Source: Comamonadaceae bacterium
Lineage (GTDB): Bacteria; Pseudomonadota; Gammaproteobacteria; Burkholderiales; Burkholderiaceae_C
Direction: 5' to 3'
DNA length: 64,000 nt
NCBI GenBank assembly: GCA_947373245.1
Contig: CANBWY010000002.1
Location: 1-64,000 of the forward strand
The position numbers and the translations under genes are program-made. Under the pieces are notes generated by a model that saw nothing but the letters and a program-made list of their open reading frames with translations, did no database searches and was not told where the DNA came from. This document shows positions 35,524-64,000 of the stretch, in pieces. Each line of letters opens with the position of its first letter. Within the stretch, counting starts at the first letter, position 1.

Positions 35524-35541
35524 CCGGAAATGGTGGTAGTT

Positions 35542-35705
35542 GATAACAATGTTTAGAACTTGAGGGCAATGTTTCGAACTCGTCCGCTTGAAACTCAAAG
35601 CATAGATGTGAAAGTTTTGAATTGCGTTGATTTATATGAAGAATTTTGACAGACGTGGAACAGTTTTTAACGCATGCGAATCTTAATAACAATGTTTCGA
35701 ATTCG
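35542..35705 (+). repeat. Three copies of (A)ACAATGTTT(A/C)GAA(C/T)T(Y)G - putative TnsB-binding sites / left end
   Basis: GATAACAATGTTTAGAACTTG (from 35542), GCAATGTTTCGAACTCG (35566-35582), AATAACAATGTTTCGAATTCG (35685-35705). Confidence 0.5.
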
Positions 35706-38607: not shown

Positions 38608-39070
38608 TTGTCCTCCTTCACAGACTCACAGTTATAGGGGGCTTCGTCCGAGGGACGACTAGGGCGATACTCGCATGCGGTTGCCGCTCACGCAGTCTAG
38701 AGACTTTCTAGTTCAAGCTTGCTCAATCATCCTCGATGATAGTTGCTGGCGGCCTAGACGATTCAGCGGCTGCTGCACTTGCATGCGGTCGTCCGACGCC
38801 TGAGTTCAGCAGAGGGCTAAGCCGTCCGCTGCGTGTCGCGTATCCGTCATCCTGAGTGGTCATCACAGCAGTAGCGCTGCTGGCCGAGCCGATGTCGGCA
38901 TGCGTCGCCGATGCCCTTCGCAGCGCGCCGATTTGGGTTTGAACCGAGGATCACGGCCCGATGGCGGTGGTAAGCTCGTCTTCAAGCCATAGAATTGGAA
39001 CAGCGAGGTTCCGCGCATGCGGAGGTTCGCTCTACGGGGCGGTCACGCAGCGATCAGGAGTTCGAACGGC

Positions 39071-41646: not shown

Positions 41647-43039
41647 AGCGCTCCGCAAGCTCGGCGGTGGCGAGGTCGTCAGCGCCGAGCTTTTACGCCA
41701 AATCTGCACCGAGTTGGATGATGCGTCTCTCAGGTATGGGCGGGCTTCGACCGCAACGGTCTACGGCGCTTTTTCGGCGCTCCTGCGCATCGTGCTGTCT
41801 CTGGCGGAGTGGCGGCAAGCAGTTCTCGACGCAGTTCCAGACGGTGACCGGTTCCTGCGCAGTGCAGTGGAGCGCCATCGTCTTTGGCTTAAGGAGTTTG
41901 GTAAGAAAGACGTCGCCAAGAGCCTCGTGGATGCGTCAGCCTCATTGCAGTCTGTCGCAACCATTGCCGATTTCGAGTCTATCTGCAAAACGCTGGCTGG
42001 CATTCCGTTGCCGATCGGTGTGTTTTCTGAGGAGAGGCCGCGCATTCCGGCCGGTCCGGAAAAAGTTGAAGAGCGCCCACGGCCTACGGAGCTCTCAGTG
42101 GCCTTCGTGAAGTTTCAGCTTGGTGGCCAACCAGCGGCCAACATCCACCACCTCGTCCCGCGCGAATTGCATGACATGGAGATCGAGGTCAGAGTCTCTC
42201 GATGGCCAGAGGGCGCCACGCACCTGGTGCTGACGCCGATCTCGGCGGAGCCCAATAGCACCTACGAGCTCTCCGAGTTCACGTTCACGAAGCCGTCCAC
42301 GGAGCCACCGTACACGCTCATCCAGACGGGTCGTGCTGCTCTCCAGATCGCACAGGGATTGAAATCGAGGCCATTCGAGTTCAAGTACACGGCGGCATTC
42401 CAACCCGCCAGCTCAGAGCAGCCCGTTGCTGTCGTCGGCCACCGTACGCTTTTGGTGGAGGGCTTCGACATACGGGCCAACTCGATTACCGGCTATCAGC
42501 CTGTCGACGAAAAGATCCTGTGGATCCGCGATCTGCTAAGACGGGAAGGCAGAGCAAATGCCGAGGAGCTGTCGGACATTCTTGAGCTACTGACCAGTCT
42601 GGGCAATCTTGCTGGGAGAGCAGTTCAAGATGCCGTGTTCGATGGCACGTGGTGCGAGAAGGAATTCCAAGCCCAGGTTCGTGAGGACCTTCGCCGGTCG
42701 CCCCGCATCGGGTCGGATCTGGAGGAGCACCCCGCGGCCGCAGGGGGCTTCACTGACTTGAGCCTTCGCGGAATCACGATCGAGCTCAAGAAGACGGGCA
42801 CGCGGATCAAACAGATGGAAGGCTGCCGCAAATATGTCGAGCAAGCTGCCAGCTACGCGGTGGCCAAAGGCAAGCGCGTAGCTCTGTTGTGCATTCTGGA
42901 TACCAGCGTCAAAAATTCTGCGCCTTGGTCGGCGGCCGACGGCATCGACGTTTTGATGTCAGCACCGCCAGCCAACGTGGCGGTCATCACGCTCGTCATC
43001 CAGGGGAACATCACTCGTCCGAGCAAGTTGTCCCGTTGA
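41591..43039 (+). CDS. Protein with C-terminal PD-(D/E)xK-type nuclease domain
   Basis: 482 aa; CEKEFQAQVREDLRRSP...GGFTDLSLRGITIELKKTGT...EGCRKYVEQAASYA = E...D-x(n)-ExK...Q pattern. Confidence 0.65.
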   Translation: MQRDAILSQVFFARIQAVEALRKLGGGEVVSAELLRQICTELDDASLRYGRASTATVYGAFSALLRIVLSLAEWRQAVLDAVPDGDRFLRSAVERHRLWLKEFGKKDVAKSLVDASASLQSVATIADFESICKTLAGIPLPIGVFSEERPRIPAGPEKVEERPRPTELSVAFVKFQLGGQPAANIHHLVPRELHDMEIEVRVSRWPEGATHLVLTPISAEPNSTYELSEFTFTKPSTEPPYTLIQTGRAALQIAQGLKSRPFEFKYTAAFQPASSEQPVAVVGHRTLLVEGFDIRANSITGYQPVDEKILWIRDLLRREGRANAEELSDILELLTSLGNLAGRAVQDAVFDGTWCEKEFQAQVREDLRRSPRIGSDLEEHPAAAGGFTDLSLRGITIELKKTGTRIKQMEGCRKYVEQAASYAVAKGKRVALLCILDTSVKNSAPWSAADGIDVLMSAPPANVAVITLVIQGNITRPSKLSR

Positions 43040-43571
43040 GGCCTTAGTCGCTTCGCTGGATGTGAAAAGCGCACGATGTCGTCAGTCAAGTTCCGGGGCC
43101 GAATAGGCAGCCCTTCGCAGGGTCTTGCTCGAGCCGCAGCTTTCCTTGGGGGCCTTGAAACTGCCCACATCGAACAGGGAGCCGAGATGCCGCAAAGGAG
43201 TCGTTGGTGAACTTCAGCAATCAGCCTAAAGCTGTCAAGTTACGGAAAACTTGGCTGTCCGGTTTGGGGCGCTCAACAAAGTGACATATGCCCAGAGGCG
43301 CTACACCAGACACATAAATTTTTGGCCCACTGGTGCTCATCGAAAACAGAAACACGCGCAGTGCTAGTTTAATTACCTGTCTTTCAATCATCGTCTAGCG
43401 TGTAGACTCTTGCTCGCGCCGTTGCATGGTCGGCGTGCTGCCCATCCCCAGGGCCCATAGGGCCACAGCAAAGTGGAATCGACCTGCGTTTTTCTGCCCT
43501 AAGGTTAGCTCTTTGTGAGCACCAGGGAAGGTGGGTGGGCGTCTCTGGTGCATATGCATAGAGGACAAACA

Positions 43572-45194
43572 ATGAACGATTCCACGCATGTCGAGCACCA
43601 GCTCGACACCATCCACCGTCAAGCCAAGCGTTTTGCGGTAAGGCTCAAACTACCAACCACTGCGGCCAAGACCATCCTGGCTCGGGCGTTCTACCGATGC
43701 GCTGAATGGCGTGATTTGGAAGCCCGTCTGAAGAGCCAAGATTTGGACAGACATATTCAAATGCTGACGGCTTTGCCTCGGTCAGACCAAGCCCGTTTGT
43801 ATTTCGCTGCGATTCGTTGCGACCTAGCCAAATCGTTGAGTCAGCACATGTTGACAAACTCAAACCTAGCGGGACTGATTGATCTCGTTCAAGAGGTCTT
43901 TGTCGTTGATTCAGTTCCTACAACACTTGATGATCTGGTGCCGACCCTCAAGGCCTCTGCCTGGCGCGCAACAAACATTGGTCCCGATCCATGGGCTGTG
44001 GTGGAGTCCAATATTGTGGTCAATGGAGCTTGCATCAGGCTGGTGGGCACGCGAACCTATTTGCCAAGGTACTACGACTTTGGTCCCAAGCACGAGTTCG
44101 GGGAGTACGCTGAGCCTGCTGGAGGAATGCTCCAAATCGTTTGGGCAGAACCGATGGCGTGGTATCAAGCTGCTCTGGACTACCTCGATGAACTAGACGC
44201 AGAGGATATAAAGTTTCCGGATGTTGAACTAACAAAAGAGATGTCTCAACATCAGGCTTGGTTCGAAGCCGCCCTCGTGGCTGTTGGCAATATTGCGGAG
44301 TACCGCGCTGGCGATAACGACCTTTTGCCAGTCGTTCTTGAGGATGGAAATTGCTACGTTGTTTTCGGATATCCAGTGAGAACACTGGAAACGAATCCGA
44401 CGAGTTTCACGACAGTTGAGCTTGCATCAACTAGCGACAACTTCAGTCAGGTCGTGATGTTGCACGAGAACCCTGTTTGCTTGGAATGGATTGCCTATGA
44501 TCAAAAGTGTGGGAAACATTCTGGCGAATTTGACGACTACTTCTTGACGCTGAAGGAGGCAATTTTTCGAGATGAATGTTTGCCTGTAACACCTCGCACT
44601 GATGGTCAACCAGGTTTGTTGTTCGTTCGTCCGGCTACTGAGTTCGACATTCGCCAGGAGTTGAAAGTTGACTTCACTTACCTCGCAAATGAAGTTGCGT
44701 TCGTAGTGAAAACATCTAATCTCACACTGAGCCGCAAGCTTCTTGACAAGGTGGCGAATCGTGATCTGATGGTTTATGCCTCTGAGGAACATCCGAGGTA
44801 CTTTGCTCAGTTTTTAGTGCCTCAAACTGAAGGCCCGCCCATGCTGAGCCTGTCGTTTGATTCCGAGAGCCCTAACTGGACGACGATGTCGAATCTTGTT
44901 CAGAGCTCATATTGGGAAGCAAAAGAGGACCAGTGGGAGCTCCTGGTAGAAGTTGTGCCAAAACTGATGAACTTGATCGACAGAATTGGCAAAAAGGCGC
45001 TGGACAGGGCGATGTGTCATGGTTTGATACAGCGCTTGCCAACTACGGTTTTGGATGAGCTTGAGCAGCCTCCTACGCGCTGTAAGCAAATTCCATCGGT
45101 ATCTAAAGAGATAGCCACCGCAATAAACAAGCCACTAGACGGTGACGGCCATCTCACTATGCGCTATATACGGAATTTACGGGACAACTTCTAG
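43572..45194 (+). CDS. Cargo protein of unknown function (540 aa)
   Basis: Intact ORF MNDSTHVEHQLDTIHRQAKRFAVRLKLPTTAAKTILARAFYRCAEWRDLEARL...; no catalytic motif recognised. Confidence 0.6.
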   Translation: MNDSTHVEHQLDTIHRQAKRFAVRLKLPTTAAKTILARAFYRCAEWRDLEARLKSQDLDRHIQMLTALPRSDQARLYFAAIRCDLAKSLSQHMLTNSNLAGLIDLVQEVFVVDSVPTTLDDLVPTLKASAWRATNIGPDPWAVVESNIVVNGACIRLVGTRTYLPRYYDFGPKHEFGEYAEPAGGMLQIVWAEPMAWYQAALDYLDELDAEDIKFPDVELTKEMSQHQAWFEAALVAVGNIAEYRAGDNDLLPVVLEDGNCYVVFGYPVRTLETNPTSFTTVELASTSDNFSQVVMLHENPVCLEWIAYDQKCGKHSGEFDDYFLTLKEAIFRDECLPVTPRTDGQPGLLFVRPATEFDIRQELKVDFTYLANEVAFVVKTSNLTLSRKLLDKVANRDLMVYASEEHPRYFAQFLVPQTEGPPMLSLSFDSESPNWTTMSNLVQSSYWEAKEDQWELLVEVVPKLMNLIDRIGKKALDRAMCHGLIQRLPTTVLDELEQPPTRCKQIPSVSKEIATAINKPLDGDGHLTMRYIRNLRDNF

Positions 45195-45342: not shown

Positions 45343-46674
45343 CTATGCATTAAATAATGGCAGTACACATTGCCTATCTCTTATTTCCGGAATTTTTGCC
45401 AAAGTTGAAGCAAGCAATTCTGGCTCCCACCGCTTAAGCCAACTCACAGATCCTTTGCACCGTAGGTGCACATCCGTTTTGGTTACATCGTGTGTTTCAT
45501 TTATCAGGGCTTCAATTTCAGCTAACGCTGCGACCTTTCTGTTTTGCCTGAGATTTGTCCCCCGTACATGTTGGGGTGAGCATTGTGCTTCTTTCATATA
45601 GCGTCTAATCGTTGCAACGGATACCTTTAGCTGCTGGGCCGCAGATTTAATTGTCTTTGCGTTTTTCACAATGGCTTGTACTTTTTCATCCGCTTGAAAC
45701 TCTTTCTCGATCCACAACTGACCTTGGCCATCGTCTTGCCAAATTAGCATCGCGTCTGGCTCGTGAAAACCTCGAACCACATCTTGTGTGGAAAATCCTT
45801 CAAAGGTAGCCACCCACAACATCATCCATAACAAAGGATGGCTAGCTCTTCGCTTGAGAAGAGTTTCGTAAATCCATTGTTTTTCAATCACCGATTGGAT
45901 CGAAGGTTCGACTTGTTTTACTGCTTCAGCCAAGCGTGTCAACGCAAACCACTGTTGAAGAATCTCGGAGGACACAGGTTTAATGGATGTCACTAAACCC
46001 ATGTCTCTCAAGCGTGAAAGTACAGCTCGCTTAATACCAACAAGATTGACGCGTTCCTTGCCTACCAAGCTACCAGCTAGCGCAGACAAATTACGCAGTG
46101 CCTGAATACATTCGTTGTTTAGCAACGGTTGGGACGTCGGGTTAGTGATTAAAGGAATCACCCATTCAGCTATATCTGGATTGAGCTTATTTAAGTACAA
46201 GTCATGTTCTACACACCACCAAGCCCCTGGCAATTGGTGAGGAAGTCGCCACCTTGGCATTGCGCCATCTGCAAGATCATTTTGAATGCAGCATTGGCAC
46301 CAACGCATTTCTACCTTGTCTAGGGTGCTGGCACGCATTCCAAATCGCGTTAGCCAAGGTGTTCGCACATTACTTTCAGCGCATCGGTCAAACTCTTCAC
46401 GCTGCTCATATCTCAAAAATGGATAGTAGGCCGCGAGAACAGTTCTTTGCAACAAAATGTCCTTTGTGTTTCCAAGGTGCTTGTTAGTTGCGATCCCGAA
46501 ATGTGCAAACCGAGTGCTAGTTGCCCATTCTTTGTAGGCATGTGATGCGCCAAACAACAGTCGCCCAGTGTCTTTAACGGAATACCCAACAATACGATGC
46601 ATCCTTGCTGCCCAAGAATACAAAGTCTCATCTCCACGCCATTGGGGGATGAGTTGCAGAGGTCTTACATGCAT
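45343..46674 (-). CDS. tniQ: TniQ/TnsD-family target-selection protein
   Basis: PLQLIPQWRGDETLYSWAARMHRI and zinc finger CQCCIQNDLADGAMPRWRLPHQLPGAWWCVEHDLYL; C-terminal HTH-like region. Confidence 0.85.
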   Translation of the reverse strand: MHVRPLQLIPQWRGDETLYSWAARMHRIVGYSVKDTGRLLFGASHAYKEWATSTRFAHFGIATNKHLGNTKDILLQRTVLAAYYPFLRYEQREEFDRCAESNVRTPWLTRFGMRASTLDKVEMRWCQCCIQNDLADGAMPRWRLPHQLPGAWWCVEHDLYLNKLNPDIAEWVIPLITNPTSQPLLNNECIQALRNLSALAGSLVGKERVNLVGIKRAVLSRLRDMGLVTSIKPVSSEILQQWFALTRLAEAVKQVEPSIQSVIEKQWIYETLLKRRASHPLLWMMLWVATFEGFSTQDVVRGFHEPDAMLIWQDDGQGQLWIEKEFQADEKVQAIVKNAKTIKSAAQQLKVSVATIRRYMKEAQCSPQHVRGTNLRQNRKVAALAEIEALINETHDVTKTDVHLRCKGSVSWLKRWEPELLASTLAKIPEIRDRQCVLPLFNA

Positions 46675-46678
46675 TCGG

Positions 46679-48115
46679 TTATTTTCTCGAACGTGTTTGC
46701 TTTGACTGCCGATTAACACTAGTTTCGTGAGTGAGCGCTTTAAGGTCGGAGATTAATTTTTTCTGCTCGGTCGTAGATTCAATTTTGGCGCTCATCTCAA
46801 AAACCTCTTGAACTGCTTTAGCTTCAACTGAAGATCGATGAGATGTTTTAGTTTGAGATGGTGTTGGTTTGTCTGCCAACCAGTAATTTCGCAATTGTTC
46901 GATCGGAAGATCTTGATAGGCCATCAGTGCTTTGATGTCTTTATTAGCTAGCGCTTTGTTGCGCTCTTTCACAACAGAAAATTTAGGTGAATGATTAAAA
47001 ACTTTTAGCACAAGCTCTGAAGTCACTTGTGACACGTTATTGACCAATGCCCATTCCATGACCTCGGAGCGCAAGCGTCCAAGATGCCTCGGCATGCCAC
47101 CTGTCAGCTGCCAGAGAAAAGTAGGCCAATCAGTGATATCTGGGTAAGTTGCTAGCGGTGAAAACGGAGCATCTGGTTCGTCAAGGAGGCTAGGAGCCCA
47201 AAGTCCTGGCATCCAAGATTTTCTCCATGTGTCGCTATCAGGGCCCAACTCTGGGAGCATCGTGAACCAGCCGCCCTCAGAAAATCGATCAACGTCTTGC
47301 GCATGCATGCGTAGCTCACGAAACGAAAGTGGATTTCCAATAATCAGAATCGGAATACCCCAATTCAAAATCCTCAAGAAAAAATTCAAGAAGTCACGTG
47401 AAAACGCTCTCGATCCAAGATTGTCTTCTTGCGCCTCTTCAATAATCAGCATGCCACAACGATGTTGCACCAGCAGTTGCATGACGTTGACGATTAAGGT
47501 CTCAACGCGACTAGTTGTCTTTACTAGGGCGCGGCAATAATTTGTTTCCAATACGGTGTCCATTGCGACCAAGATGGACACCAGTAATCCTTTTCGAGAT
47601 TGATCGGCTGGCATATGCACCTTGAGATATACCAATTGACGCAGTTTGAGCATGCCCCAATCGCCTTGAGGTTCATGGTCAACGACTTGAGGAAGTAGGG
47701 TAAGCACTCGATCAACGATGTGAGATTTACCGATGCCTGTAATACCTTCGATGATCATGCCCTTTGCTTGAATTGGATTCCATGGAATTTCGTCCACACT
47801 TCGTCCATGCCATTGCTGTGTTGAGTTGATCCAACGTTGGACCTCTGGCCAAATCGGATTGCGACGTTCTAGATTGCTGTACATGATGTTCAGGATGCGA
47901 TCTGAAATTTGTATCGCTTGGTGCGTAGGCACATAAATCTTTAAATATTGATCAGTCAGTCTGCGGCGATTTTCTCTAGCGACTGTGCACTTGCCCGCTT
48001 GAGGAATCGGTGAATGAATCAACATCTTGATCAGCTCTCTCGAATTGGAAAGCCAATTCGCGATTGAGCAAAGGCCCGGAGCTTGTAACAGTGGATTTAG
48101 TGGTACGTCAGACAT
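46679..48115 (-). CDS. tnsC: TnsC-like AAA transposition regulator
   Basis: Walker A IIEGITGIGKSHIV, Walker B MLIIEEAQE, position between tnsB and tniQ. Confidence 0.85.
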   Translation of the reverse strand: MSDVPLNPLLQAPGLCSIANWLSNSRELIKMLIHSPIPQAGKCTVARENRRRLTDQYLKIYVPTHQAIQISDRILNIMYSNLERRNPIWPEVQRWINSTQQWHGRSVDEIPWNPIQAKGMIIEGITGIGKSHIVDRVLTLLPQVVDHEPQGDWGMLKLRQLVYLKVHMPADQSRKGLLVSILVAMDTVLETNYCRALVKTTSRVETLIVNVMQLLVQHRCGMLIIEEAQEDNLGSRAFSRDFLNFFLRILNWGIPILIIGNPLSFRELRMHAQDVDRFSEGGWFTMLPELGPDSDTWRKSWMPGLWAPSLLDEPDAPFSPLATYPDITDWPTFLWQLTGGMPRHLGRLRSEVMEWALVNNVSQVTSELVLKVFNHSPKFSVVKERNKALANKDIKALMAYQDLPIEQLRNYWLADKPTPSQTKTSHRSSVEAKAVQEVFEMSAKIESTTEQKKLISDLKALTHETSVNRQSKQTRSRK

Positions 48116-50405
48116 TAGTACCTCGGTTTTGTTCTTCATACAGCTGGGCTGCAATATTTAGCCAATGATCATCATTTGAGTTGGCCGCGGTTTGAGGTGG
48201 TGACTCAAAAATGCCAGTCGTTCGATTTATTTGATCTGGTTGAAGCGGTTTCAACGGATCCTCTTTAAGCGGTACGCCAGTCAGGACTGCTTTTTCCATA
48301 TCTGTCATGAGTCGAATGTCACGACGCATTTCAGTCTTTGTAGGTTTGCCATGTTGCTTGATCGCTTCTTGTCTAACCTTTCGTCCTTCTTTGTAGCGAT
48401 GGTCAATGCTTGCCAGTTTCTCGGAAAGGTGTTGTGTTTCGATTTTGTTAGCGAGAAAAGCAGATAGCTTGTCATCCTCAGTGATCGCTAGCCAATCGAT
48501 CAACGTCACTCCCGCTAAATCATGGTCGCCTGAGACCAAATCAAATCGTCGTAATCCTCCGATGTTGGCCCAAATGTGGGATAGGTCTATCGGATTCAGG
48601 TGAACTTCCAGTTTGTGAACTTTCTGTCGGCTTTTATGCAACAGGCCATGAGTGAGTAGAAATTCGTTGCGATAAACCAACTTTTTAATCAGTTGTTTAC
48701 CGCCTGATCCTGGGACAAAGACATGAATTCCGTCACCATGCATGGACGCTTCAAATCGCGGAAGACACGTCACACGCAGGATATCAATGTCCACAGGTGA
48801 TGAGGACATATAGTGGTGCTCCATGAGCCACTCCACGACGCCACGACGCGTTCTTTCCTTGAGACCTGGATACATCTCTTGTCTTGGCGGGTCTATGTAG
48901 TCTTTGTTGTTGTGGTGCAAAATTTCTTTGAGCAGCAAGTGCATGTAGTCGTCAAACCTCAATCCAGCAATTTGTGCACGGTCTTTTTCGCCGCGAATTT
49001 TTTGTCTGCCCATCGTTGTTCCTGGCATCAAGTGATCGTTTCTTTTTTGTCGTTGGTGGTGGCCAGATTCATTCGGAGATTTGTTGATCGCGTCATATGC
49101 TTTGCCGTATGAAGCGGTCATGCTCATTTGCTCTAAGGTGTACATCGCTAGCTTCCCTTTGCCTTCACCGTTGTCTGTTTCAAACGTGTTGAAAGTGCAG
49201 CTATACCAGTCCCTAGGTTCTATGGTGTGGCCAAATCGCGCGCAAAGAGCAACCTTGTCTGAGGCGGCATTAAGAATTGCAAGTAGCGCTGTCGTTGCAC
49301 TAGCAGCTTCAAATCCAACATAAATTCCGAATATGTAATCAATGGCTGAACCCAGCACTTCAGTCCGCCAAGGTGACTTCAATCGTTTAAGTGGATGAAT
49401 TGATGAAATCAAAGTTTGGTCAGTGGATGTGCTGTCTATATAAGCAACGCCATTCAACGTTTCATATCGATCCCTTGCTTTATTCAAGCGTCTTTGAATT
49501 TCGTCACGAGCCGGAGATAGTCCTCTACGGATGTCAATAGATCGCAAGGCTTGCGGATCTTTTAATCCCCAATATCTAAACATTTGTGGACTGATATCGA
49601 AGGCTTCTGGTTTGAGCTCAATCCTTACGCCATGCTTTGATGGCGTGACTGCTTTCACAAAATAGTCGTTGCGAGTTTTAGCAAGTGCAACTTGATCAGA
49701 AACGCCTTGTCTCTTGTGCCTTTTCCAGCCCAACATTAGTTTTGATCGTGTATCCGGTGTGAGATATGGACGGCTCTTTTTTTGATTTTCAATTCGTGCG
49801 GCAATGGTCGGGCGCCCAGTATCTGTTGTGCTGAACTTCTGACTACCAGGCCCACCGCAATTTGCATATCCAGGCATAAGTGCTCGTTTGTCGGCCATTC
49901 CAAGTAAGTACGCATGAAGAGCACGTCTGATTTTTGTTGAGGATTTCAGTCCCAAATCTTGAGCGCGCAAATTTGGCCAGCTCTGAAAATTTCGATCGGT
50001 AAGAATTTCTTGAATTGTTCGGGTTTCGACAAAAGGCCGAATTAATTCAAATGAGTTGTCGCGTATTGTTTTCCATTTAAATAGATTTCTTCTGTGCCGC
50101 ATCAGAGGGCTACTGTTTGTGAATTCAGTTTCCATCTGAGCGTCAACCCATAACCAATGTTCTGGAGCCTTGAAGTCAACTAAAGAAAATTTTTCAGAAC
50201 TTCCTAAGTCCTTGGCTAAATCAATAGCTGACATGAAACGTGGTGCAGCAACATAGTTATTCTGTTTTCCGTTCTTTGATTTGGGAAACGGAACGCAGAC
50301 CACCAAACCTTCAGCCATGTCTACGTAGATGATCCGAAAAGTATGGATAGCTTTTCCAACGGGCGTTTTTTGTACGATGCACTTGCCAATCCAACTTTGA
50401 CTCAT
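48108..50405 (-). CDS. tnsB: TnsB-like DDE transposase
   Basis: 765 aa; catalytic D in YIDSTSTDQT, D in FETDNGEGKG, E exactly 35 residues later in NKSPNESGHHQRQKRND (D-x34-E). Confidence 0.88.
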   Translation of the reverse strand: MSQSWIGKCIVQKTPVGKAIHTFRIIYVDMAEGLVVCVPFPKSKNGKQNNYVAAPRFMSAIDLAKDLGSSEKFSLVDFKAPEHWLWVDAQMETEFTNSSPLMRHRRNLFKWKTIRDNSFELIRPFVETRTIQEILTDRNFQSWPNLRAQDLGLKSSTKIRRALHAYLLGMADKRALMPGYANCGGPGSQKFSTTDTGRPTIAARIENQKKSRPYLTPDTRSKLMLGWKRHKRQGVSDQVALAKTRNDYFVKAVTPSKHGVRIELKPEAFDISPQMFRYWGLKDPQALRSIDIRRGLSPARDEIQRRLNKARDRYETLNGVAYIDSTSTDQTLISSIHPLKRLKSPWRTEVLGSAIDYIFGIYVGFEAASATTALLAILNAASDKVALCARFGHTIEPRDWYSCTFNTFETDNGEGKGKLAMYTLEQMSMTASYGKAYDAINKSPNESGHHQRQKRNDHLMPGTTMGRQKIRGEKDRAQIAGLRFDDYMHLLLKEILHHNNKDYIDPPRQEMYPGLKERTRRGVVEWLMEHHYMSSSPVDIDILRVTCLPRFEASMHGDGIHVFVPGSGGKQLIKKLVYRNEFLLTHGLLHKSRQKVHKLEVHLNPIDLSHIWANIGGLRRFDLVSGDHDLAGVTLIDWLAITEDDKLSAFLANKIETQHLSEKLASIDHRYKEGRKVRQEAIKQHGKPTKTEMRRDIRLMTDMEKAVLTGVPLKEDPLKPLQPDQINRTTGIFESPPQTAANSNDDHWLNIAAQLYEEQNRGTNV

Positions 50406-51397
50406 GCTGAGACCCCTAAAAAATGTTTAGCCAGCTTGTTTGCACATTGACTCCCGCCTAGCCGAATTGGCTGCAACATAGAAATTCGACTGCTCATGTC
50501 GATATCAATCAATCGAAGCCATGAGCCAACCCGCCATAAGGTGGCGGCTTCTTCGGGAGCGCCAACTGCTAAGCCTGCATGTGAAATGCACAAGTGCAGT
50601 GGTTTGCCGTCGCGTGTCTGATTTAAATGCTCACTGAAATCCTCCAACTGTGCAGAGCCTGCCCATCGTTGAATTTCATTTTTTGTGGGTTGATAAGTTT
50701 GCAAATTTTTGGTGACGATCGAGCTGAAACTACTTCCTCCTTCTCGCAGATGTCTTGCGCCAACAGCGCGACAGTAGATTTCATCTAGAGTCGCTCTTTC
50801 TTGTGCCCTAGGGCTGCGAGTATGAATTTCATCAGGCTTGCAGCTGATACCAATGTGATGTGTTTGACCATGCCAAACAACCGTTGCCATGATGTCCAAC
50901 GAAGCGATGTAAGGCACATCACTACCAACAAAATTTCCATGCTCAACTCCGGCATCACGAGCTATATCTAACAATCCAGTTGTACGAGCATTTGTTCGCT
51001 CATCAATCGGATGCTGATGTTCAGTTGGCCACATTGGCAAACACTCACGCAATTCAACGGCACCTAGATAGGCTAGTTGTAATGCAGTGTGATGCTCTAA
51101 CTTGCTCAGGAAGTGGTGGTTACGTCTGTGAATGCTTAGAGATGCAAAAACCTGATGGCTAACGGGACTTGAAAAACCTCTCGTAATTCGAATCCAAGGC
51201 GAATATTCTTCATGACGGCCTTGTCCTCGGCCATCACGAATCCATTTCAAAACTTGATTCAGCTTTCGTTCGTTGAAGCTTCTTTTTAATTTTTTGTGGG
51301 ACACACGACTTACGCGGTCCAGCAATCGATATTCATCTAGGTATTGATTTACAAAACCAACCCTTTCCCCAAACGAGTTGTCAGTAATTTCAAACAT
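50402..51397 (-). CDS. tnsA: TnsA-like endonuclease
   Basis: LSKLEHHTALQLAYLG...PYIASLDIMATVVWHGQTHHIGISCKPDE matches TnsA N-terminal nuclease layout; ATGA overlap with tnsB. Confidence 0.8.
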   Translation of the reverse strand: MFEITDNSFGERVGFVNQYLDEYRLLDRVSRVSHKKLKRSFNERKLNQVLKWIRDGRGQGRHEEYSPWIRITRGFSSPVSHQVFASLSIHRRNHHFLSKLEHHTALQLAYLGAVELRECLPMWPTEHQHPIDERTNARTTGLLDIARDAGVEHGNFVGSDVPYIASLDIMATVVWHGQTHHIGISCKPDEIHTRSPRAQERATLDEIYCRAVGARHLREGGSSFSSIVTKNLQTYQPTKNEIQRWAGSAQLEDFSEHLNQTRDGKPLHLCISHAGLAVGAPEEAATLWRVGSWLRLIDIDMSSRISMLQPIRLGGSQCANKLAKHFLGVSA

Positions 51398-51545
51398 ACA
51401 GTTCCCCTCCAAACGCTAAATACAGTTAGCTTTAAGTTGGTTTTTGCAATGGCTGCGGCCATGCATTACGAGGGAATACAGATGATCAGGTTGGCGTGTT
51501 CTAAAAATTTGCGCGCAGGTATTTACACACTTGCCTCATTTCTTG

Positions 51546-53302: not shown

Positions 53303-54319
53303 ATGTTTTCAAATATACCTGCGCTATTTTTAGATGAGTGTGCACGAGGTTATATGCTTCGCATCACTGCATTGCATGCAAAAAAGAATGTCTTTGTCAC
53401 CAAGCTACTGCCCGCCCTTGTACGTGTTACTGGCTTAGATCTAGAGACGTTGCTTAAGAAGCATACACACATGGGCTACATGCGATATGTGAGCACTGAG
53501 TTTTTTGGGCAAGACATTTCTAGGCACGGAGATGTTATGACAAACACCAGAGTTTTATCTGGAGTGACGCCGTTGAGTGGTGCGCGAATGTGTGTTGATT
53601 GCACTAAAGATGACGCAGACCGGTACGGGGTTAGCTATTGGAGACGTATACATCAACTTCCTGGTATCGATTTTTGTATTCGTCATGGCAAAGGACTATC
53701 TAATTTCCGTGCGTATGTTGATATACACAATTTACCAATGAAATTTCTGAAGGAACCGACGATAGATGAAGAGGGTATTTATGAATTGCTTCAGTGCGAA
53801 GCCTATCAACGATTTCTGGTTTTAAGTGAAATTGCATTGAACGCCGTGGTTCCCATTGCTACAGGGTCAATGGGTAGAGCATTTATAAAACGATTCAATG
53901 CTCTTCACTTTAGTAGTCGAACTTCGTTGAAAGAACTTTTACTTTGTACGTTTCCACACGAATGGCTTGAGCAGCATTTTCGAATTCAGGGAGGTACAGA
54001 ACGCGTCTGGCCAACGATAGATTACTTTTCGAAGATCAACCATCAAATTCAGGCGATCCCATTTTATTTGCTCGTTATGGCTTTGCTTTGGGATGATCCG
54101 AATGAGGCTGTGCAAGCTTGTCTGCAGGAAGAACATTCTTTCGATCAAGTCGGAGCGCGTCTTGCACTACAGGATGTACTCCGAGGTCGATCAATCACGT
54201 GGGCATGTCGGATACACAAAATTGAATTCAGAGATTTTGAAATTGCCTTGCAAAAGTTTTTTGCAGAAAATCGACCTGTAACCAATGATTTTCTAAGTAG
54301 TGGAGTAGCTTGCAAATAA
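53303..54319 (+). CDS. Second TniQ/TnsD-family protein
   Basis: TniQ zinc finger MCVDCTKDDADRYGVSYWRRIHQLPGIDFCIRHGKGL. Confidence 0.82.
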   Translation: MFSNIPALFLDECARGYMLRITALHAKKNVFVTKLLPALVRVTGLDLETLLKKHTHMGYMRYVSTEFFGQDISRHGDVMTNTRVLSGVTPLSGARMCVDCTKDDADRYGVSYWRRIHQLPGIDFCIRHGKGLSNFRAYVDIHNLPMKFLKEPTIDEEGIYELLQCEAYQRFLVLSEIALNAVVPIATGSMGRAFIKRFNALHFSSRTSLKELLLCTFPHEWLEQHFRIQGGTERVWPTIDYFSKINHQIQAIPFYLLVMALLWDDPNEAVQACLQEEHSFDQVGARLALQDVLRGRSITWACRIHKIEFRDFEIALQKFFAENRPVTNDFLSSGVACK

Positions 54320-54956: not shown

Positions 54957-56501
54957 ATGCTCGACGACATCAAAAAGACCCTCTGGGCATCTGCCGACAA
55001 ACTGCGCGCCAACATGGACGCTGCCGAATACAAGCACTTGGTACTCGGACTCATCTTCATCAAATACATCAGCGACAGTTTTGAAGCCCACAAAGCTAAC
55101 CTGACCGCGCGCCTGCAAAACCCCAAAGACGAGCTGTACTTTGGTGGCGCGTCAGAAGCCGACATTGTTGCCGAGCTAGAAGACCGCGATTACTTCACAG
55201 CTGCCAACGTGTTTTGGGTTCCCGAAGGCGCACGCTGGACACAGCTTCGCGCTGCAGCACCCCAGCCCGACGTTGGCAAACGCATCGACGATGCGCTCAC
55301 CCTCATTGAGCAAGAAAACCCGCGCCTCAAAGGCATCCTCGACAAACGCTTTGCCCGCGCTCAATTGCCAGACGGCAAGCTGGGCGAGTTGGTCAACCTG
55401 ATCTCCACCATCGGCTTTGGTGACGACCCATCGAAGGCCCGCGACATCTTGGGCCAGGTGTACGAATATTTCTTGGGCATGTTTGCCAGCGCCGAAGGCA
55501 AGCGGGGCGGGCAGTTCTACACGCCCGCCAGCATTGTCAAAACGCTGGTGGCCGTGCTCTCGCCCAGCAAAGGCCAGATTTACGACCCGTGCTGCGGGTC
55601 GAGCGGCATGTTCGTGCAGTCTGAAAAGTTCATCGAAGACCACGGCGGCAAGCTGGGCGATGTGTCCATCTACGGCCAAGAGGCCAACCCCACCACCTGG
55701 CGCTTGGCGGCCATGAACCTCGTCATTCGGGGCATGGACTACAACCTGGGCAAAGAACCCGCCGACACCTTCACCCGCAACCAACACCCCGACCTGCGGG
55801 CGGACTACGTGCTGGCCAATCCGCCCTTCAACATCAGCGACTGGTGGCACGCCAGCCTGGACGGCGACGCCCGCTGGGAATACGGCACGCCCCCGCAAGG
55901 CAACGCCAACTACGCCTGGCTGCAACACATCCTGCACCACCTCAAGCCCACGGGCCGGGCGGGCATTGTGCTGGCCAACGGCAGCATGAGCAGCAGCCAG
56001 AACAGCGAAGGCCAAATCCGCGCCGCCATGGTCGATGCCGACGTGGTGGAGGTGATGGTGGCCTTGCCCGGCCAGTTGTTCTTCAACACGCAGATTCCCG
56101 CGTGCCTGTGGTTCTTGGCCAAACAGAAAAAGCGCAAAGGCGAAGTGCTGTTCATCGACGCCCGCAAACAAGCCACCATGATCAGCCGCGTGCAAAGCGA
56201 GCTGACCGACGAAGTGATCGAGCGCATCAGCCAAACCGTGGCCGCGTGGCGATCAGGTACTGACGATTACCAAGACATTGCAGGTTTTTGCCGCAGCGTG
56301 CCGCTAGCCGAAATCGCCCAACACTGCCATGTGCTCACCCCAGGCCGCTATGTGGGTGCGGAAGAAGTGGAAGACGACGACGAAGCCTTTGCCGACAAGA
56401 TGCAAACGCTCACCGCGAAGCTGGCCGAGCAAATGGTCAAAGGCGCAGAACTGGACGCACTAATTCGCCAGAAGCTGGGGGGGCTGGGGTATGAGTTCTG
56501 A
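54957..56501 (+). CDS. hsdM: Type I restriction-modification methyltransferase subunit
   Basis: GQFYTPASIVKTLVAVLSP, PCCGSSGMFVQSEKF, ADYVLANPPFNISDWW (NPPF). Confidence 0.96.
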   Translation: MLDDIKKTLWASADKLRANMDAAEYKHLVLGLIFIKYISDSFEAHKANLTARLQNPKDELYFGGASEADIVAELEDRDYFTAANVFWVPEGARWTQLRAAAPQPDVGKRIDDALTLIEQENPRLKGILDKRFARAQLPDGKLGELVNLISTIGFGDDPSKARDILGQVYEYFLGMFASAEGKRGGQFYTPASIVKTLVAVLSPSKGQIYDPCCGSSGMFVQSEKFIEDHGGKLGDVSIYGQEANPTTWRLAAMNLVIRGMDYNLGKEPADTFTRNQHPDLRADYVLANPPFNISDWWHASLDGDARWEYGTPPQGNANYAWLQHILHHLKPTGRAGIVLANGSMSSSQNSEGQIRAAMVDADVVEVMVALPGQLFFNTQIPACLWFLAKQKKRKGEVLFIDARKQATMISRVQSELTDEVIERISQTVAAWRSGTDDYQDIAGFCRSVPLAEIAQHCHVLTPGRYVGAEEVEDDDEAFADKMQTLTAKLAEQMVKGAELDALIRQKLGGLGYEF

Positions 56502-57789
56502 ATTGTCCCCGCTCTACCGTTTTGCCGATCTCCTTGCAGAACCATTGCGGAATGGCATCTACAAAACTAAAGAGCACCACGGGCATGGCGTCAAAGTAGT
56601 GAATATGGGAGAACTCTTCGGGCACCCTAGGCTGAGCGATATACCCATGAAAAGAGTCGGACTCACAATAGCGGAGATATCGAAATCAAGTCTTAGGGAG
56701 GGTGACCTGCTGTTCGCAAGGCGCTCCCTAGTAGCTTCAGGCGCAGGCAAATGCACTATTGTCAAAAAAATAGTTGAAGCGACCACTTTCGAAAGCTCAA
56801 TCATTAGAGCTCGTCCAAATGGAAGCCTTGCTGATAGCGACTATCTCTACTACTTTTTCGCATCTCCGCAAGGAAAGGAGCTTATGGGCACCATCTTGCG
56901 GCAGGTTGCTGTTTCCGGCATTACTGGCGGTGATCTTGCGGAATTAAAAATTCCGTTGCCTAACCTCAATGAGCAACGAAGACGGGCTTCAGTGCTTCAG
57001 GCGCTAGACGACCGCATTACCCTCCTACGCGAAATCAACACCACCCTCGAAGCCATCGCCCAAGCCCTGTTCAAGTCCTGGTTCGTGGACTTCGACCCCG
57101 TCCAAGCCAAGATGCAAGGCCGCGCCCCCGAAGGCATGGACGAAGCCACCGCCGCCCTGTTTCCTGACAGCTTTGAAGAGTCGGAGTTGGGGGCTGTGCC
57201 GAAGGGGTGGAAATGGCTGCCGCTGAATGTTGCTTATGAAATCTATCCGACACGAAAGCTGAAGAAAGGTGAGACTGCGCCTTACTTGGATATGGCAGGT
57301 GTCCAAACGCAAGGGCACTCAGTCGATGGCGTGATTCAACGTGAAATGGGCTCGGGGACAAAGTTCATCAACGGTGACACCTTGTTGGCGCGCATCACAC
57401 CATGTCTTGAAAACGGCAAGACGGCATTCGTCGATTTTTTACCCGCTGATACAACGGGATGGGGCTCGACAGAGTTTGTTGTTTTGAGACCCAAAGACCC
57501 GCTGCCGCCGTACCACGCCTATTTGTTAGCTCGACATCCTGCATTTAGAGAGCATGCAATCAGAAGCATGTCCGGCACCAGTGGTCGTCAGCGCATTCAA
57601 AACGATGTGCTGAGCCAATTCTTTGTCACTGTACCAAATGAATCTGTTGCTAAAGCGTTCTCAGAATTGGTGGTGGCTATACATGAAGCTATCTGCGAAG
57701 GGCACCAGAGATCGCAAACACTTTCAGCTTTACGGAACAATTTACTACCCCGTCTTATTTCTGGTCACTTGAAGCTCAAGGCTGGATGA
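56491..57789 (+). CDS. hsdS: Type I restriction-modification specificity subunit
   Basis: Two TRD-type halves, LNEQRRRASVLQALDDRITLLREINTTLEAIAQALFKSWFVDFDPV. Confidence 0.94.
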   Translation: MSSELSPLYRFADLLAEPLRNGIYKTKEHHGHGVKVVNMGELFGHPRLSDIPMKRVGLTIAEISKSSLREGDLLFARRSLVASGAGKCTIVKKIVEATTFESSIIRARPNGSLADSDYLYYFFASPQGKELMGTILRQVAVSGITGGDLAELKIPLPNLNEQRRRASVLQALDDRITLLREINTTLEAIAQALFKSWFVDFDPVQAKMQGRAPEGMDEATAALFPDSFEESELGAVPKGWKWLPLNVAYEIYPTRKLKKGETAPYLDMAGVQTQGHSVDGVIQREMGSGTKFINGDTLLARITPCLENGKTAFVDFLPADTTGWGSTEFVVLRPKDPLPPYHAYLLARHPAFREHAIRSMSGTSGRQRIQNDVLSQFFVTVPNESVAKAFSELVVAIHEAICEGHQRSQTLSALRNNLLPRLISGHLKLKAG

Positions 57790-57793
57790 CCAT

Positions 57794-58486
57794 ATGAAAA
57801 AAATAACACTTTCAAATTTCGGTCACTTTTTGGCAATTCTGCTTGTGCTGATGTCGGTGTTTGTCATGGGCTACTTTGGATATCAGTACTACGTGGAACC
57901 CAAGTCAGAGGTTGCGAATGTTTTCACAGGGGCCGGAGCAGTTTTGGCTGCGGCAGTTTCTGCTCTTGTTTCCTTTCGAACTGTTACGATTATTGAAGAG
58001 TCTCAACGGCCTTTCCCATACCCCTACATCGATATTAAAAGTCGTTATGGTTTGTCCCTCATAAAAATCAAAAATGCAGGAGGCTCAGCAGCGCATCGTG
58101 TTTATATTGAGTGGGAGGATGGCACTCCCTCGCTTCGTCAAGGAGCGGATAGTCAGGCTCAACCTATTCATTTCGCAGGCGATGAGGCGCACGCTATATC
58201 GATACTCATGCCAGGGGACGAGCAGTCCACCATGCTTGGTGCCCACCATTGGGTCGCAGAACAACTTAATAGCAATCAGCCCAAGCTGAAAGGTAATGTT
58301 GTCTTTCAGGACGTCAAGGGCAATATTTGCCGAATTCCGTTTTTCATTGACACATCGTTTTATGAATGGGCCTTGGCTGATGAAACGGAGCTACTAAAAG
58401 CGCAGAGAGCAATGACTGAGTTACCACAGGCGCTTGTCAACATTAATCAGTCGCTTTCAAGAATCAACGCTACCTTGGGGAAATAA
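57794..58486 (+). CDS. Membrane protein of unknown function inside the hsd locus
   Basis: 230 aa, two N-terminal hydrophobic segments, then soluble domain. Confidence 0.6.
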   Translation: MKKITLSNFGHFLAILLVLMSVFVMGYFGYQYYVEPKSEVANVFTGAGAVLAAAVSALVSFRTVTIIEESQRPFPYPYIDIKSRYGLSLIKIKNAGGSAAHRVYIEWEDGTPSLRQGADSQAQPIHFAGDEAHAISILMPGDEQSTMLGAHHWVAEQLNSNQPKLKGNVVFQDVKGNICRIPFFIDTSFYEWALADETELLKAQRAMTELPQALVNINQSLSRINATLGK

Positions 58487-59301: not shown

Positions 59302-59634
59302 ATGACAGTGAAAAAAAATAGAAATACAGAGCAAGCATGGGACGAACGCAAGTTAGGGGCAGAGGCCGAGTTTGTGGGCGTGGCCGATGCGTCGCATGAA
59401 GAGGCGTTACAAGAGGCTTTGGAATTGCAAGCCATCTCCATTCGATTGCCCAAAGATTTGGTGCGTAACTACAAGCTGATTGCCGAGTTTCATGGCATTG
59501 GCTATCAGCCTTTGATGCGTGATGTGTTGCAACGTTTTGTAGCCCCTGAGTTAAAGCACATTTTGGAAACGCAGCACAAGGCCGCTAAAGCGATGGAGAA
59601 ACCAGGGCTTATCCCAAGACGTAAAGCGGCCTGA
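59302..59634 (+). CDS. CopG/BrnA-like antitoxin candidate
   Basis: [39 protein letters not shown] (ribbon-helix-helix-like), 3' partner of the toxin. Confidence 0.65.
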
Positions 59635-62600
59635 TGATGACGGAGGACCAGCTCGAACAAGAAGTCCTAGGCTGGCTGGCCTCTGTAGGCTACACGCCGC
59701 TCAATGCCCGCGACCTAGACCACCTTGATCCAAGGCTAGAGCGCGGCAGCACGCGTGAGGTGTTGTTGGCGGTTAGTCTGCGTGCGGCGATTGCGCGCCT
59801 GAACCCGCACATGCCCAGTAGCGCACACGAGGATGCCTACAAGCAGGTGCTCGACATGGGGCAGCCTGCGTTGTTGTCGGGCAACCGAGCTTTCCACCGC
59901 GTGCTGGTGGCGGGTGTGCCAGTGCAATACCAAAAAGATGGCGAAACGCGTGGCGACTTTGTACGCTTGGTCGATTGGCATAACACGGCAGCCAACGAGT
60001 GGCTGGCAGTGCAGCAGTTCACCATCAAAGGGCCGCGTCACACGCGCAGACCTGACATTATTTTGTTCATCAACGGCTTACCGCTGGTGTTGGTCGAGTT
60101 AAAGAACCCTGCCGACGTGAATGCCGATATTTGGAAGGCCTACGACCAAATACAAACCTACAAAGAGCAAATCGCCGATGTGTTTACCTACAACGAGTTG
60201 TTGGTAATTTCAGACGGTACAGACGCACGCATGGGCTCGCTATCGGCCAATGCCGAGCGCTTCATGCAGTGGCGCACGATTGACGGCGTAGCGCTTGACC
60301 CACTGGGTGAATTGCGCGAGCTAGAAACCATGGTGCGCGGCGTGTTGTCCCCCGCGTATTTGCTGGACTATTTGCGTTTCTTTGTGTTGTTTGAAGACGA
60401 TGGTCACTTGGTGAAGAAGGTGGCGGGTTATCACCAGTTTCATGCAGTGCGTGCAGCCATCGAACAGGTGGTGCAAGCATCCAGCACCGAAGACACTAAA
60501 ACACGCGGCAAGGGCGGCGTGGTGTGGCACACGCAGGGCAGTGGCAAAAGTATCACCATGACGTGCTTTGCAGCACGCGTGATGCAAGAGCCCAAGCTAG
60601 AGAACCCAACAATTGTGGTGATCACCGACCGCAACGATTTAGACGGTCAGCTGCTGGGTGTATTTAGCCTGAGCCAAGACTTGTTGCGCGAGCAACCACA
60701 GCAAGCCACTACACGCCACAAGCTGCGTGAGCTGCTAGACAACCGGCCATCGGGCGGCATCATATTTGCCACGATTCAAAAATTCATGCTGGGCGAAGAC
60801 GAGGATGTGTTTCCCGTGCTTTCTAGCCGCCGCAACATTGTGGTGATTGCCGATGAAGCGCACCGCACGCAATACGGCTTTGAGGCGAAGCTAAAGAACG
60901 TCAAGTTGCCCAGCAAGCCATTGCCGACAGGGCAAGCAAACACCTCTGCAGTAGCGGCAGAGTTTGCGCCGCCTGAGTACGAGGTAAAATACCAAGCAGG
61001 CTACGCGCAGCACTTGCGTGATGCCTTGCCCAATGCCACGTTCGTGGCGTTTACTGGTACGCCGGTTAGCAGCACAGACCGCGACACGCGCTCGGTGTTC
61101 GGCGAGTACATCCATGTGTACGACATGAAGCAGGCCCAAGAAGATGGCGCAACCGTGGCCATTTACTACGAAAGCCGCTTGGCCAAGCTGGGCTTAAACG
61201 ATGCAGACCTAAGCGACTTAGATGATGAAGTAGACGAGTTGGCCGAGGACGAAGAAGAAAGCGCACAAGCCAAACTAAAAAGCCGCTGGGCCGCACTAGA
61301 AAAAGTAGTGGGCGCTGTGCCCCGCGTGGCCAGTGTGGCTGCCGATTTAGTAACGCATTTTGAAACTCGCAACAGCGCGCACCCAGGCAAGGCGATGGTG
61401 GTGGCGATGAGCCGCGAGATTTGTGTGCACTTGTATGACGAGATCATCAAGCTGCGTCCGCAGTGGCACAGCGATGACCCTGAGCAAGGCGCAATCAAGA
61501 TAGTGATGACGGGCAGTGCCAGCGACAAAGCGCTGTTGCGCCCACACATCTACAGCAGCCAAGTGAAGAAGCGTTTAGAAACGCGATTCAAAGACCCGCA
61601 AGACGAGCTAAAGCTAGTCATCGTGCGCGACATGTGGTTAACGGGCTTTGATGCGCCATGTGTGCACACCTTGTATGTGGATAAGCCCATGAAAGGCCAC
61701 AACCTCATGCAAGCGATTGCCCGCGTGAACCGCGTGTTCAAAGACAAACAGGGCGGCTTGGTGGTGGACTACATCGGTATTGGCGAAGACCTGAAAGCCG
61801 CCATGAAGGAATACACCGCCAGCAAAGGCCGAGGCAAGCCCACGGTGGATGCCCGCGAAGCGTTGTCAGTGCTTTTAGAAAAGCTCGATGTGCTGCGTGC
61901 CATGCTGCATGGTTTTGACTACTCCGACTTTTTAACGGGTGGCCACAAAACATTGGCCTGTGCTGCCAACCATGTGTTGGGCATCAAAGGTGACAAAGAG
62001 CGCGATGGCAAAAAACGTTTTGCCGATCAAGCGCTGGCCATGAGCCACGCTTACAGCCTGTGCTGTACCTTAGAGGAAGCCAAAGGCTTGCGCGACGAAG
62101 TGGCCTTTATGCAGGCCGTGAAAGTGATTTTGACCAAGCGCGAAGTGAGCAAGCAGCGCAAGACCGACGAAGAGCGCGATTTGGCAATTCGCCAAATCAT
62201 CAGCTCGGCGGTGGTGTCGGGTGAGGTGGTGGATATTTTTGCGGCCGTGGGCTTAGATAAGCCCAACATTGGTTTGCTTGATGACGACTTCTTGGCGCAA
62301 GTGCATAACTTGCCCGAGAAAAACCTAGCGGTGGAATTGCTTGAACGTTTGTTGCAAGGCGAAATCAAAAGCCGTTTTGCCAGCAACGTGGTGCAAGATA
62401 AAAAGTTCAGCGATATGTTGGCCAGCGTAATTCAGCGTTACCAAAACCGTAGCATTGAAACCGCGCAGGTGATGGAAGAGCTGATTGCCATGGCCAAGAA
62501 GTTCCGCGAGGCCGCCACCCGTGGCGACCAACTAGGCTTGCACGAAGACGAAGTGAAGTTCTACGACGCACTAGCTAACAACGAGTCGGCCGTGCGTGAA

Positions 62601-62819
62601 CTGCAAGACGAAACGCTGAAGAAGATTGCCCAAGAACTCACGCAAAACCTGCGCGAGAACTTGACCGTGGATTGGTCCGAGCGCGAGAGCGTGAGGGCTA
62701 AGCTGCGATTGATGGTGAAGCGGATATTGAAAAAATACAAATACCCACCAGATCAAGCCGACAACGCCGTACAGCTGGTGCTGGAGCAGGCTGAGGCGTT
62801 GGGGGAAGAGTGGACTTAA
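59634..62819 (+). CDS. hsdR: Type I restriction endonuclease subunit R
   Basis: 1061 aa; [13 protein letters not shown] (ExK nuclease), [30 protein letters not shown]. Confidence 0.96.
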
Positions 62820-62890
62820 GAAAAACTCTAGCGATTGAGGCAGGAACTTATCGTCGCTAAGTTGTTTAAAGCAATCTACCTGCGCTGCAA

Positions 62891-63106
62891 AAATCATGAA
62901 TTGCCACATTACTGCGGAGTTTGCGAGGAAAGTTTCGAGCTGAATTACGGATCAATTCTGACGATATCGGCTCAATGCACATCCACATTCCAAAGGCGAA
63001 TGAGTGGATCGCTGTACTTATGCAAAGTCCATCGCCTGCACATGGAAATGGACTGTTATTGATGCAGCATGAATTGATTCGTAGCGAAACTAAAAAAGGC
63101 TAACTA
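62891..63106 (+). pseudogene. C-terminal fragment of a TniA/TnsB/Mu-type transposase
   Basis: Frame translation IATLLRSLRGKFRAELRINSDDIGSMHIHIPKANEWIAVLMQSPSPAHGNGLLLMQHELIRSETKKG* resembles the Mu-transposase C-terminal barrel (R..V.idP.Disxi.V..p....w..v......GlsL.qH.lir); upstream in-frame stops. Confidence 0.5.
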
Positions 63107-63146
63107 AGTCAAACGCATATGAAGTACTGGAACGTAGGAGTTGAGA

Positions 63147-64000
63147 GTGGCAGATGACAGCTTGGATACGCTACGCGTAGAAAACGCTCGCTTGACTTCA
63201 TTGCTCGAGTTGCACGGCATTGAATGGAAGCAGCCATCTCAGTCCATCATTGCGGCACCAGTTCCAGAAAAATTGCACATCTCGACCAGCGAAAAAATTG
63301 CTTTATTCCGTCGTCTTTTTCGGGGGCGAGTTGATGTCTACCCTGTCCGCTGGGAAGGGAAAAATACCAATAAGGCGGGATATTCACCTGCATGTGCTAA
63401 CGAATGGCGTGTTGGTGTTTGCGAGAAGCCTCGGATCAAGTGTGGTGATTGTGGAAATCGGCTGCTAGTACCAATGGCCGATTCAGTAGTCTATAAACAC
63501 TTGGCTGGTGAGCACACGATTGGCGTGTATCCATTGCTGGAAGATGACAGTTGTTACTTTCTAGCTTTTGATTTCGACGAGGCCGATTGGCGCGATGATG
63601 CTCGCGCACTCATGCATTCCTGTGAGGAGCTTGGTATACCGGCAGCGTTAGAAATTTCACGATCTGGCAAGGGCGCACATGTTTGGATATTTTTTGCAGC
63701 AAAAGTTTTTGCCCGCGATGCACGCCGGCTTGGCACTGCCATCATCAGTCATACATGTGCTCGCACACGGCAGCTGAAACTTGAGTCTTATGACCGATTA
63801 TTTCCGAACCAAGATTCTCTACCCAAAGGTGGTTTTGGCAATTTGATTGCACTGCCTTTGCAAAAACATCCACGCCAAAGTGGTTGTAGCGTATTTGTCG
63901 ATAGAGATTTTCAACCATACCAAGATCAATGGGGATTTCTGTATCAAATGGAGCTGATGTCGCCTCACGATGTTGAGTCCACCATCCTTAGAGCAACGGG
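63147..64000 (+). CDS. TOTE conflict system archaeo-eukaryotic primase domain protein (partial, runs off right edge)
   Basis: GTG 63147 with GGAG upstream: MADDSLDTLRVENARLTSLLELHGIEW...SEKIALFRRLFRGRVDVYPVRWEGKNTNKAGYSPACANEWRVGVCEKPRIKCGDCGNRLLVPM...LAFDFDEADWRDDARAL...ALEISRSGKGAHVWIFF...FPNQDSLPKGGFGNLIALPLQ; typical TOTE AEP motifs. Confidence 0.75.
   Translation, partial: MADDSLDTLRVENARLTSLLELHGIEWKQPSQSIIAAPVPEKLHISTSEKIALFRRLFRGRVDVYPVRWEGKNTNKAGYSPACANEWRVGVCEKPRIKCGDCGNRLLVPMADSVVYKHLAGEHTIGVYPLLEDDSCYFLAFDFDEADWRDDARALMHSCEELGIPAALEISRSGKGAHVWIFFAAKVFARDARRLGTAIISHTCARTRQLKLESYDRLFPNQDSLPKGGFGNLIALPLQKHPRQSGCSVFVDRDFQPYQDQWGFLYQMELMSPHDVESTILRAT

Follow-up and report, generated by a model that had tools for sequence, protein, structure and literature searches.

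An intact AEP-TOTE primase-helicase gene behind type I restriction genes in a Tn7-like transposon of a Comamonadaceae bacterium

The protein families nearest to the gene described here are the AEP-TOTE family (PF22548), whose Escherichia coli members, 67% identical to our protein, bear the RefSeq name 'TOTE conflict system archaeo-eukaryotic primase domain-containing protein', and the CRISPR-associated primase-polymerases (CAPPs), in particular CAPP_A type 3, or 'CAPP-Helicase' (Zabrady et al., 2021, PMC8211822). Our literature search found no experimental work on AEP-TOTE and no measured activity for any TOTE protein. CAPP is a proven DNA primase-polymerase (prim-pol), the DxD-to-AxA mutant of the Marinitoga enzyme (MpCAPP) is inactive, and the helicase-bearing type is the commonest form outside CRISPR operons, where it is found in mobile elements (PMC8211822). 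Anantharaman et al. (2013, PMC3710099), in the passages found, describe as multi-level defence those restriction-modification (R-M) operons to which RhuM or DOC layers have been added. Primases go unmentioned in the main text of the DefensePredictor paper.

The window, that is, the whole stretch of 64,000 nucleotides that was analysed, covers positions 1 to 64,000 of a contig that ends at 79,118, from a draft genome of 2.29 Mb in 112 contigs (84% complete). At its right edge lies a frame that begins with GTG, is preceded by a ribosome-binding site (AGGAG at 63136-63140), and remains open to the last nucleotide, as the first-pass annotation had reported. That annotation called the gene truncated, which is correct for the window, whose edge cuts the frame, but not for the genome: on the same contig the frame continues beyond 64000 and closes at 65525, encoding 792 aa with no internal stops and no frameshifts. 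The gene is complete and intact in the genome, only the window edge cutting it, and we dropped a pseudogene or frameshifted-gene reading because the frame is intact. The extension also revealed the helicase domains that had been anticipated downstream. The coordinates of this gene and its neighbors are collected in the table.

Table 1. Features of the Tn7-like element and of the primase-helicase gene, in window coordinates unless noted.
Feature	Position	Strand	Basis
Left end, three TnsB-site-like repeats AACAATGTTTMGAAYT	35541..35703 (repeats at 35545, 35565, 35688)	+	repeat search
PARIS AriB	36156-37073	-	PADLOC 1.8e-22
PARIS AriA	37066-38607	-	PADLOC 4e-24
Olokun OloA	39017-40975, possibly on in another frame to 41646	+	PADLOC 1.5e-40
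Olokun OloB	41591-43039	+	PADLOC 2.9e-51
TniQ/TnsD-like	45343-46719	-	PF06527; transposition block 45343..51412
TnsC/TniB-like	46679-48154	-	PF05621
TnsB	48108-50405	-	match to Tn7 TnsB (7pik) 1.5e-16
TnsA-like	50402-51412	-	position and inspection only
Second TniQ-domain gene, inside element	53303..54319	+	PF06527 2.5e-10
hsdM, type I methyltransferase	54957..56501	+	PF02384 1.9e-108, PF12161
hsdS, specificity subunit	56491..57789	+	PF01420 8.1e-16
230-aa ORF between hsdS and hsdR	57794..58486	+	no Pfam, PADLOC or NCBIfam match
Toxin-antitoxin-like pair, 97 aa and 133 aa	58983..59634	+	133 aa: CopG-antitoxin-like PF12441 2.5e-5, below Pfam cut-off
hsdR, type I restriction subunit	59634..62819	+	PF11867, PF18766, PF04313; TIGR00348 9e-182
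Orphan coding-like ORFs between hsdR and primase-helicase	62835..63103	+	no match among relatives' neighbor families
AEP-TOTE primase-helicase gene	63147..64000 in window, on to contig position 65525	+	Pfam and frame extension
Four-Cys cluster codons, start of AEP domain	63393..63452, residues 83-102	+	conserved in relatives
AEP motif I FDFDEADW (DxD metal ligands)	63567..63590, residues 141-148	+	aligned to MpCAPP
AEP motif II SGKGAHVW	63663..63686, residues 173-180	+	aligned to MpCAPP
AEP motif III SVFVDRDF	63888..63911	+	aligned to MpCAPP

The assignment to AEP-TOTE with a predicted helicase, which the first-pass annotation had made from motifs, is upheld by profile and fold matches. PF22548 covers residues 49-278 (E-value 5.4e-100, 334 bits against a cut-off of 27) along model positions 1-229 of 230, far more than chance would give, and a DNA_primase_S match lies within it at residues 147-252. 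An SF2 helicase follows, with ResIII/DEAD at residues 422-564 and Helicase_C at residues 638-737, its motifs intact. The AEP-type motifs that had been quoted (FDFDEADW, SGKGAHVW and PKGGFGNLIALPLQ) are all present, and the DFD, GAH and FVD of motifs I-III all fall on their MpCAPP counterparts and are conserved among relatives. Relatives conserve the AEP motifs, the helicase motifs and the four-Cys cluster, a possible zinc-binding site, and most of these persist even where identity falls to 33-48%.

The best solved relatives of the protein are the helicases XPB, RadD and UvsW together with MpCAPP. Its C-terminal half (residues ~422-756) resembles XPB, RadD and T4 UvsW in both sequence and fold, and differs from them in its fusion to a primase and in its patchy occurrence, which is not that of a core repair gene. 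We modelled an 80% identical homologue from a more diverse alignment (pLDDT 76, pTM 0.41), an earlier model having been poor (pLDDT 62). The predicted prim-pol domain matches CAPP with a TM-score of up to 0.81 and the other half matches the SF2 helicases UvsW, XPB and RadD; the placement of the two halves relative to each other is unreliable given the pTM of 0.41. With 'CAPP-Helicase' the protein shares the order of PrimPol then helicase, motifs I-III and the fold of the primase domain.

An endonuclease domain had also been expected in the same protein, and here the expectation failed: no nuclease domain, C-terminal or in the middle, stands out by Pfam, PADLOC or NCBIfam profiles, restriction-enzyme models match over the helicase part only, and the protein ends ~55 residues beyond Helicase_C. 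In this it is unlike a distant relative (L142) that bears a C-terminal PLD nuclease domain. Because that nuclease is fused in L142, the three-part architecture varies across the AEP-TOTE family, whose members may have or lack a nuclease in cis. In all, the primase-helicase is an ordinary member of an already known, NCBI-named family, one that sits here behind a type I R-M system in a Tn7-like element.

The neighbors are as first described: hsdM, hsdS and hsdR share the strand of the gene and are accompanied by a small pair of CopG-like/toxin-like genes, whose CopG match falls below the cut-off. The hsdR gene lies directly upstream of the primase-helicase gene, on the same strand and across a gap of 328 bp, in which a search brought up neither a promoter-like nor a terminator-like site. 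The orphan ORFs in this gap may be what is left of a gene since lost; a remnant of the usual partner gene of the family (see below) was considered and dropped, as they match no neighbor family.

All of these genes lie within a Tn7-like transposon of ~30.2 kb that runs from window position 35541 to contig position ~65702. Its right end is marked by inverted AACAATGTTTMGAAYT copies at contig positions 65680 and, more weakly, 65621, just past the primase-helicase gene, which is the last gene before that end; the remaining cargo comprises PARIS (a pair that also matches PF14491 in Pfam), Olokun, the type I R-M system and the toxin-antitoxin-like pair. In common with Tn7-like transposons that carry defence cargo, the element has a TnsB homologous to that of Tn7, TnsC/TniB, TniQ and repeats at both ends; it differs in that its TnsA and TnsB are divergent and without Pfam matches, and in its target, just upstream of a gene for an MBL-fold hydrolase. 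A comparison based on the left-flank gene found the probable uninterrupted site in a relative of the same genus (L230), where the flanks lie 34 bp apart, the relative being diverged at the junction, and the sequence TGGTAG on both sides of the element is a candidate target duplication, with the same divergence of L230 at the junction. A comparison from the FeoB side with two relatives showed no uninterrupted site. Among 84 genomes of the genus, TnsB and the element occur in one. OloA seems split between two frames, a 652-aa ORF up to 40975 being followed by one of 233 aa, perhaps through a frameshift. Pfam and PADLOC give no match, and NCBIfam no meaningful one, for a 559-aa ORF (43515-45194) that lies between Olokun and the transposition genes.

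The primase-helicase is far more widespread than this element. Full-length genes were found in 4 of the 84 genomes of the genus (partial in 3 more), matches in 15 of 151 genomes at the family level, and the domain in 18 of 399 at the phylum level; relatives at 66-81% identity occur in many genera, and 91 records of conjugative and other plasmids contain a copy with at least 80% coverage. A reading as a phage gene was dropped, since no full-length copy occurs among 50,697 phage records; nine long matches on uncultivated viral contigs are possibly proviruses. In E. coli, 1,723 of 5,426 genomes have a match, with 80% or more of the query gene covered in 683. Of the E. coli copies that we inspected, some are truncated; the others belong to integrative elements, where they follow a Gp2/YagK-YfjJ-type gene and have YfjI/DUF3987 genes nearby, without R-M. 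In many E. coli genomes the gene is cut down to about its first tenth (L136, L137 and L139), in two of these (L136, L139) with a 4,959-bp AAA-domain gene following. The AEP-TOTE domain (PF22548 match) is also held by Corynebacterium glutamicum, used as a control genome; in C. glutamicum ATCC 13032, loss of the restriction locus cglIM-cglIR-cglIIR lets phage CL31 plate (PMC8002715).

Proximity to type I R-M genes is more than a local coincidence. For 80 relatives, drawn from many genera and 72-81% identical, we called and grouped the neighboring genes and searched for restriction genes in all frames, over 550 kb of upstream and 520 kb of downstream sequence. R-M genes lie upstream on the same strand at 33 loci, among them 28 of the 59 loci whose upstream stretch reaches 3 kb or more, as against two in all other orientations: one upstream on the opposite strand, one downstream on the same strand and none downstream on the opposite strand. 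If the four orientations were equally likely, p would be ~5e-18, a guide only, as related loci are not fully independent. The R-M systems vary, from type I of more than one lineage to type III Mod/Res and McrB-like, and the restriction label is scattered on the primase-helicase tree with at least 13 changes, so that the pairing was gained or lost many times. In 47 of the 80 relatives R-M is absent from the stretch examined, some stretches being short.

The same loci indicate how the gene is arranged. A same-strand ORF ends within -70 to +60 nt of the primase-helicase start at 50 of 69 loci and an ORF starts just downstream at 14 of 58, a pattern in which the primase-helicase usually closes its operon. 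An unannotated protein of ~181 aa is encoded upstream at 33 loci (within 300 bp at 30), mostly with the same overlapping spacing; at L060:9451-9996 and about 30 related loci its gene adjoins and overlaps the primase-helicase start. Searches of Pfam, PADLOC and NCBIfam returned nothing for this family, a PDB search gave no credible hit, and the partner gene is absent from the window. Elsewhere a gene for RhuM (20 loci) or for a YgjP-like metallopeptidase (10 loci) lies upstream. The similarity among upstream regions comes from these shared partner genes; a larger conserved mobile unit was considered and dropped, as downstream flanks are shared in only 22 of 2,080 pairs. With HsdMSR, RhuM, Fic, the YhcG nuclease and the YgjP peptidase as operon companions, TOTE relatives share operons of the kind described in the passages found of Anantharaman et al. 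(PMC3710099); the add-on in the window is a DNA primase-helicase placed last, which those passages do not name. Measured against the papers compared, how strong this association with restriction operons is, and which way it runs, may be new.

With the sum of this evidence, we propose, giving it about an even chance, that this 792-aa AEP-TOTE primase-helicase, close to the 'CAPP-Helicase' prim-pols, is an accessory, operon-terminal part of restriction loci, working as follows. The helicase would engage open or damaged invader DNA, at forks, gaps or ends cut by the restriction enzyme, and expose single strand, on which the AEP domain would prime and extend. Single-stranded intermediates to which restriction is blind would in this way be converted to unmodified duplex that the neighboring restriction enzyme could cut, and replication of the invader would be disturbed at the same time. 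The nuclease step would be supplied in trans by the R-M system here, and by a PLD nuclease in cis in some relatives. The primase, polymerase and helicase activities, the action on invader DNA and the provision of the nuclease step by restriction are predictions from sequence.

In favour of this accessory role are the intact domains and motifs, with CAPP and SF2 folds and the activity of CAPP itself (PMC8211822); the upstream position of R-M genes at 33 of 80 loci against 2, scattered on the tree, with varied R-M types and an operon-terminal place; and the patchy occurrence in the genus (full length in 4 of 84) as co-cargo with PARIS and Olokun. Against it stand the 47 relatives and the E. coli copies without R-M, the 328-bp gap to hsdR in the window, and the fact that a place behind R-M genes suits repair as well as attack. 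More tentatively, and rather doubtfully at present, the family as a whole may be a transferable tail module, repeatedly acquired by unrelated R-M types (type I lineages, type III, McrB-like), often with the co-translated 181-aa partner, that would extend the reach of restriction by turning single-stranded or damaged DNA of the invader into unmodified duplex open to cutting.

Primase-polymerases take part in repriming. The main rival explanation, which we judge unlikely though deserving of weight, is one of host protection by repair or damage tolerance: the protein would reprime and refill host DNA damaged by its own restriction enzyme or by phage, and so lower the cost of R-M. The helicase relatives XPB, RadD and UvsW are DNA-repair enzymes, prim-pols known in repriming have been reviewed (PMC10345425), and a tail position behind R-M genes would suit a safeguard; however, the patchy, mobile distribution and the defence co-cargo are more typical of conflict genes, and many relatives have no R-M nearby.

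A second rival, to our minds improbable, would make the protein a replication helper that primes its own carriers, whether plasmids, integrative elements or satellites. PrimPol-helicases do replicate some plasmids (ORF904 of pRN1, PMC10345425), and the plasmid-borne copies and the E. coli copies in integrative elements, with their Gp2/YagK-YfjJ-type and YfjI/DUF3987 neighbors, fit such a role; yet in this genome the gene is carried by an element that moves by cut and paste and in others it closes chromosomal R-M operons, its surroundings show no recognisable origin or replication gene, and the phage records hold no full-length copy. That it is a CAPP making spacer precursors for Cas1-Cas2 is very improbable, for although CRISPR-associated PrimPol models pick up its AEP domain (PADLOC PDLC01465, 5e-111; NCBIfam NF040561, 1e-27), the NCBIfam CAPP score of 96.6 bits falls under the cut-off of 200, the context is one of restriction instead of CRISPR, with no Cas1, Cas2 or other CRISPR gene recognised among the annotated genes of the island, and the helicase-bearing type is itself most prevalent outside CRISPR operons (PMC8211822).

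The role as an accessory to restriction matters because AEP-TOTE is a common family, with matches, whole or in pieces, in nearly one E. coli genome in three, and because its recurring position at the end of the operon, after the restriction genes, gives its function a concrete, testable partner and direction, which the E. coli members make easy to test in the laboratory. A transposon that carries PARIS, Olokun, a type I R-M system and this primase-helicase is also informative about the assembly and movement of defence islands.
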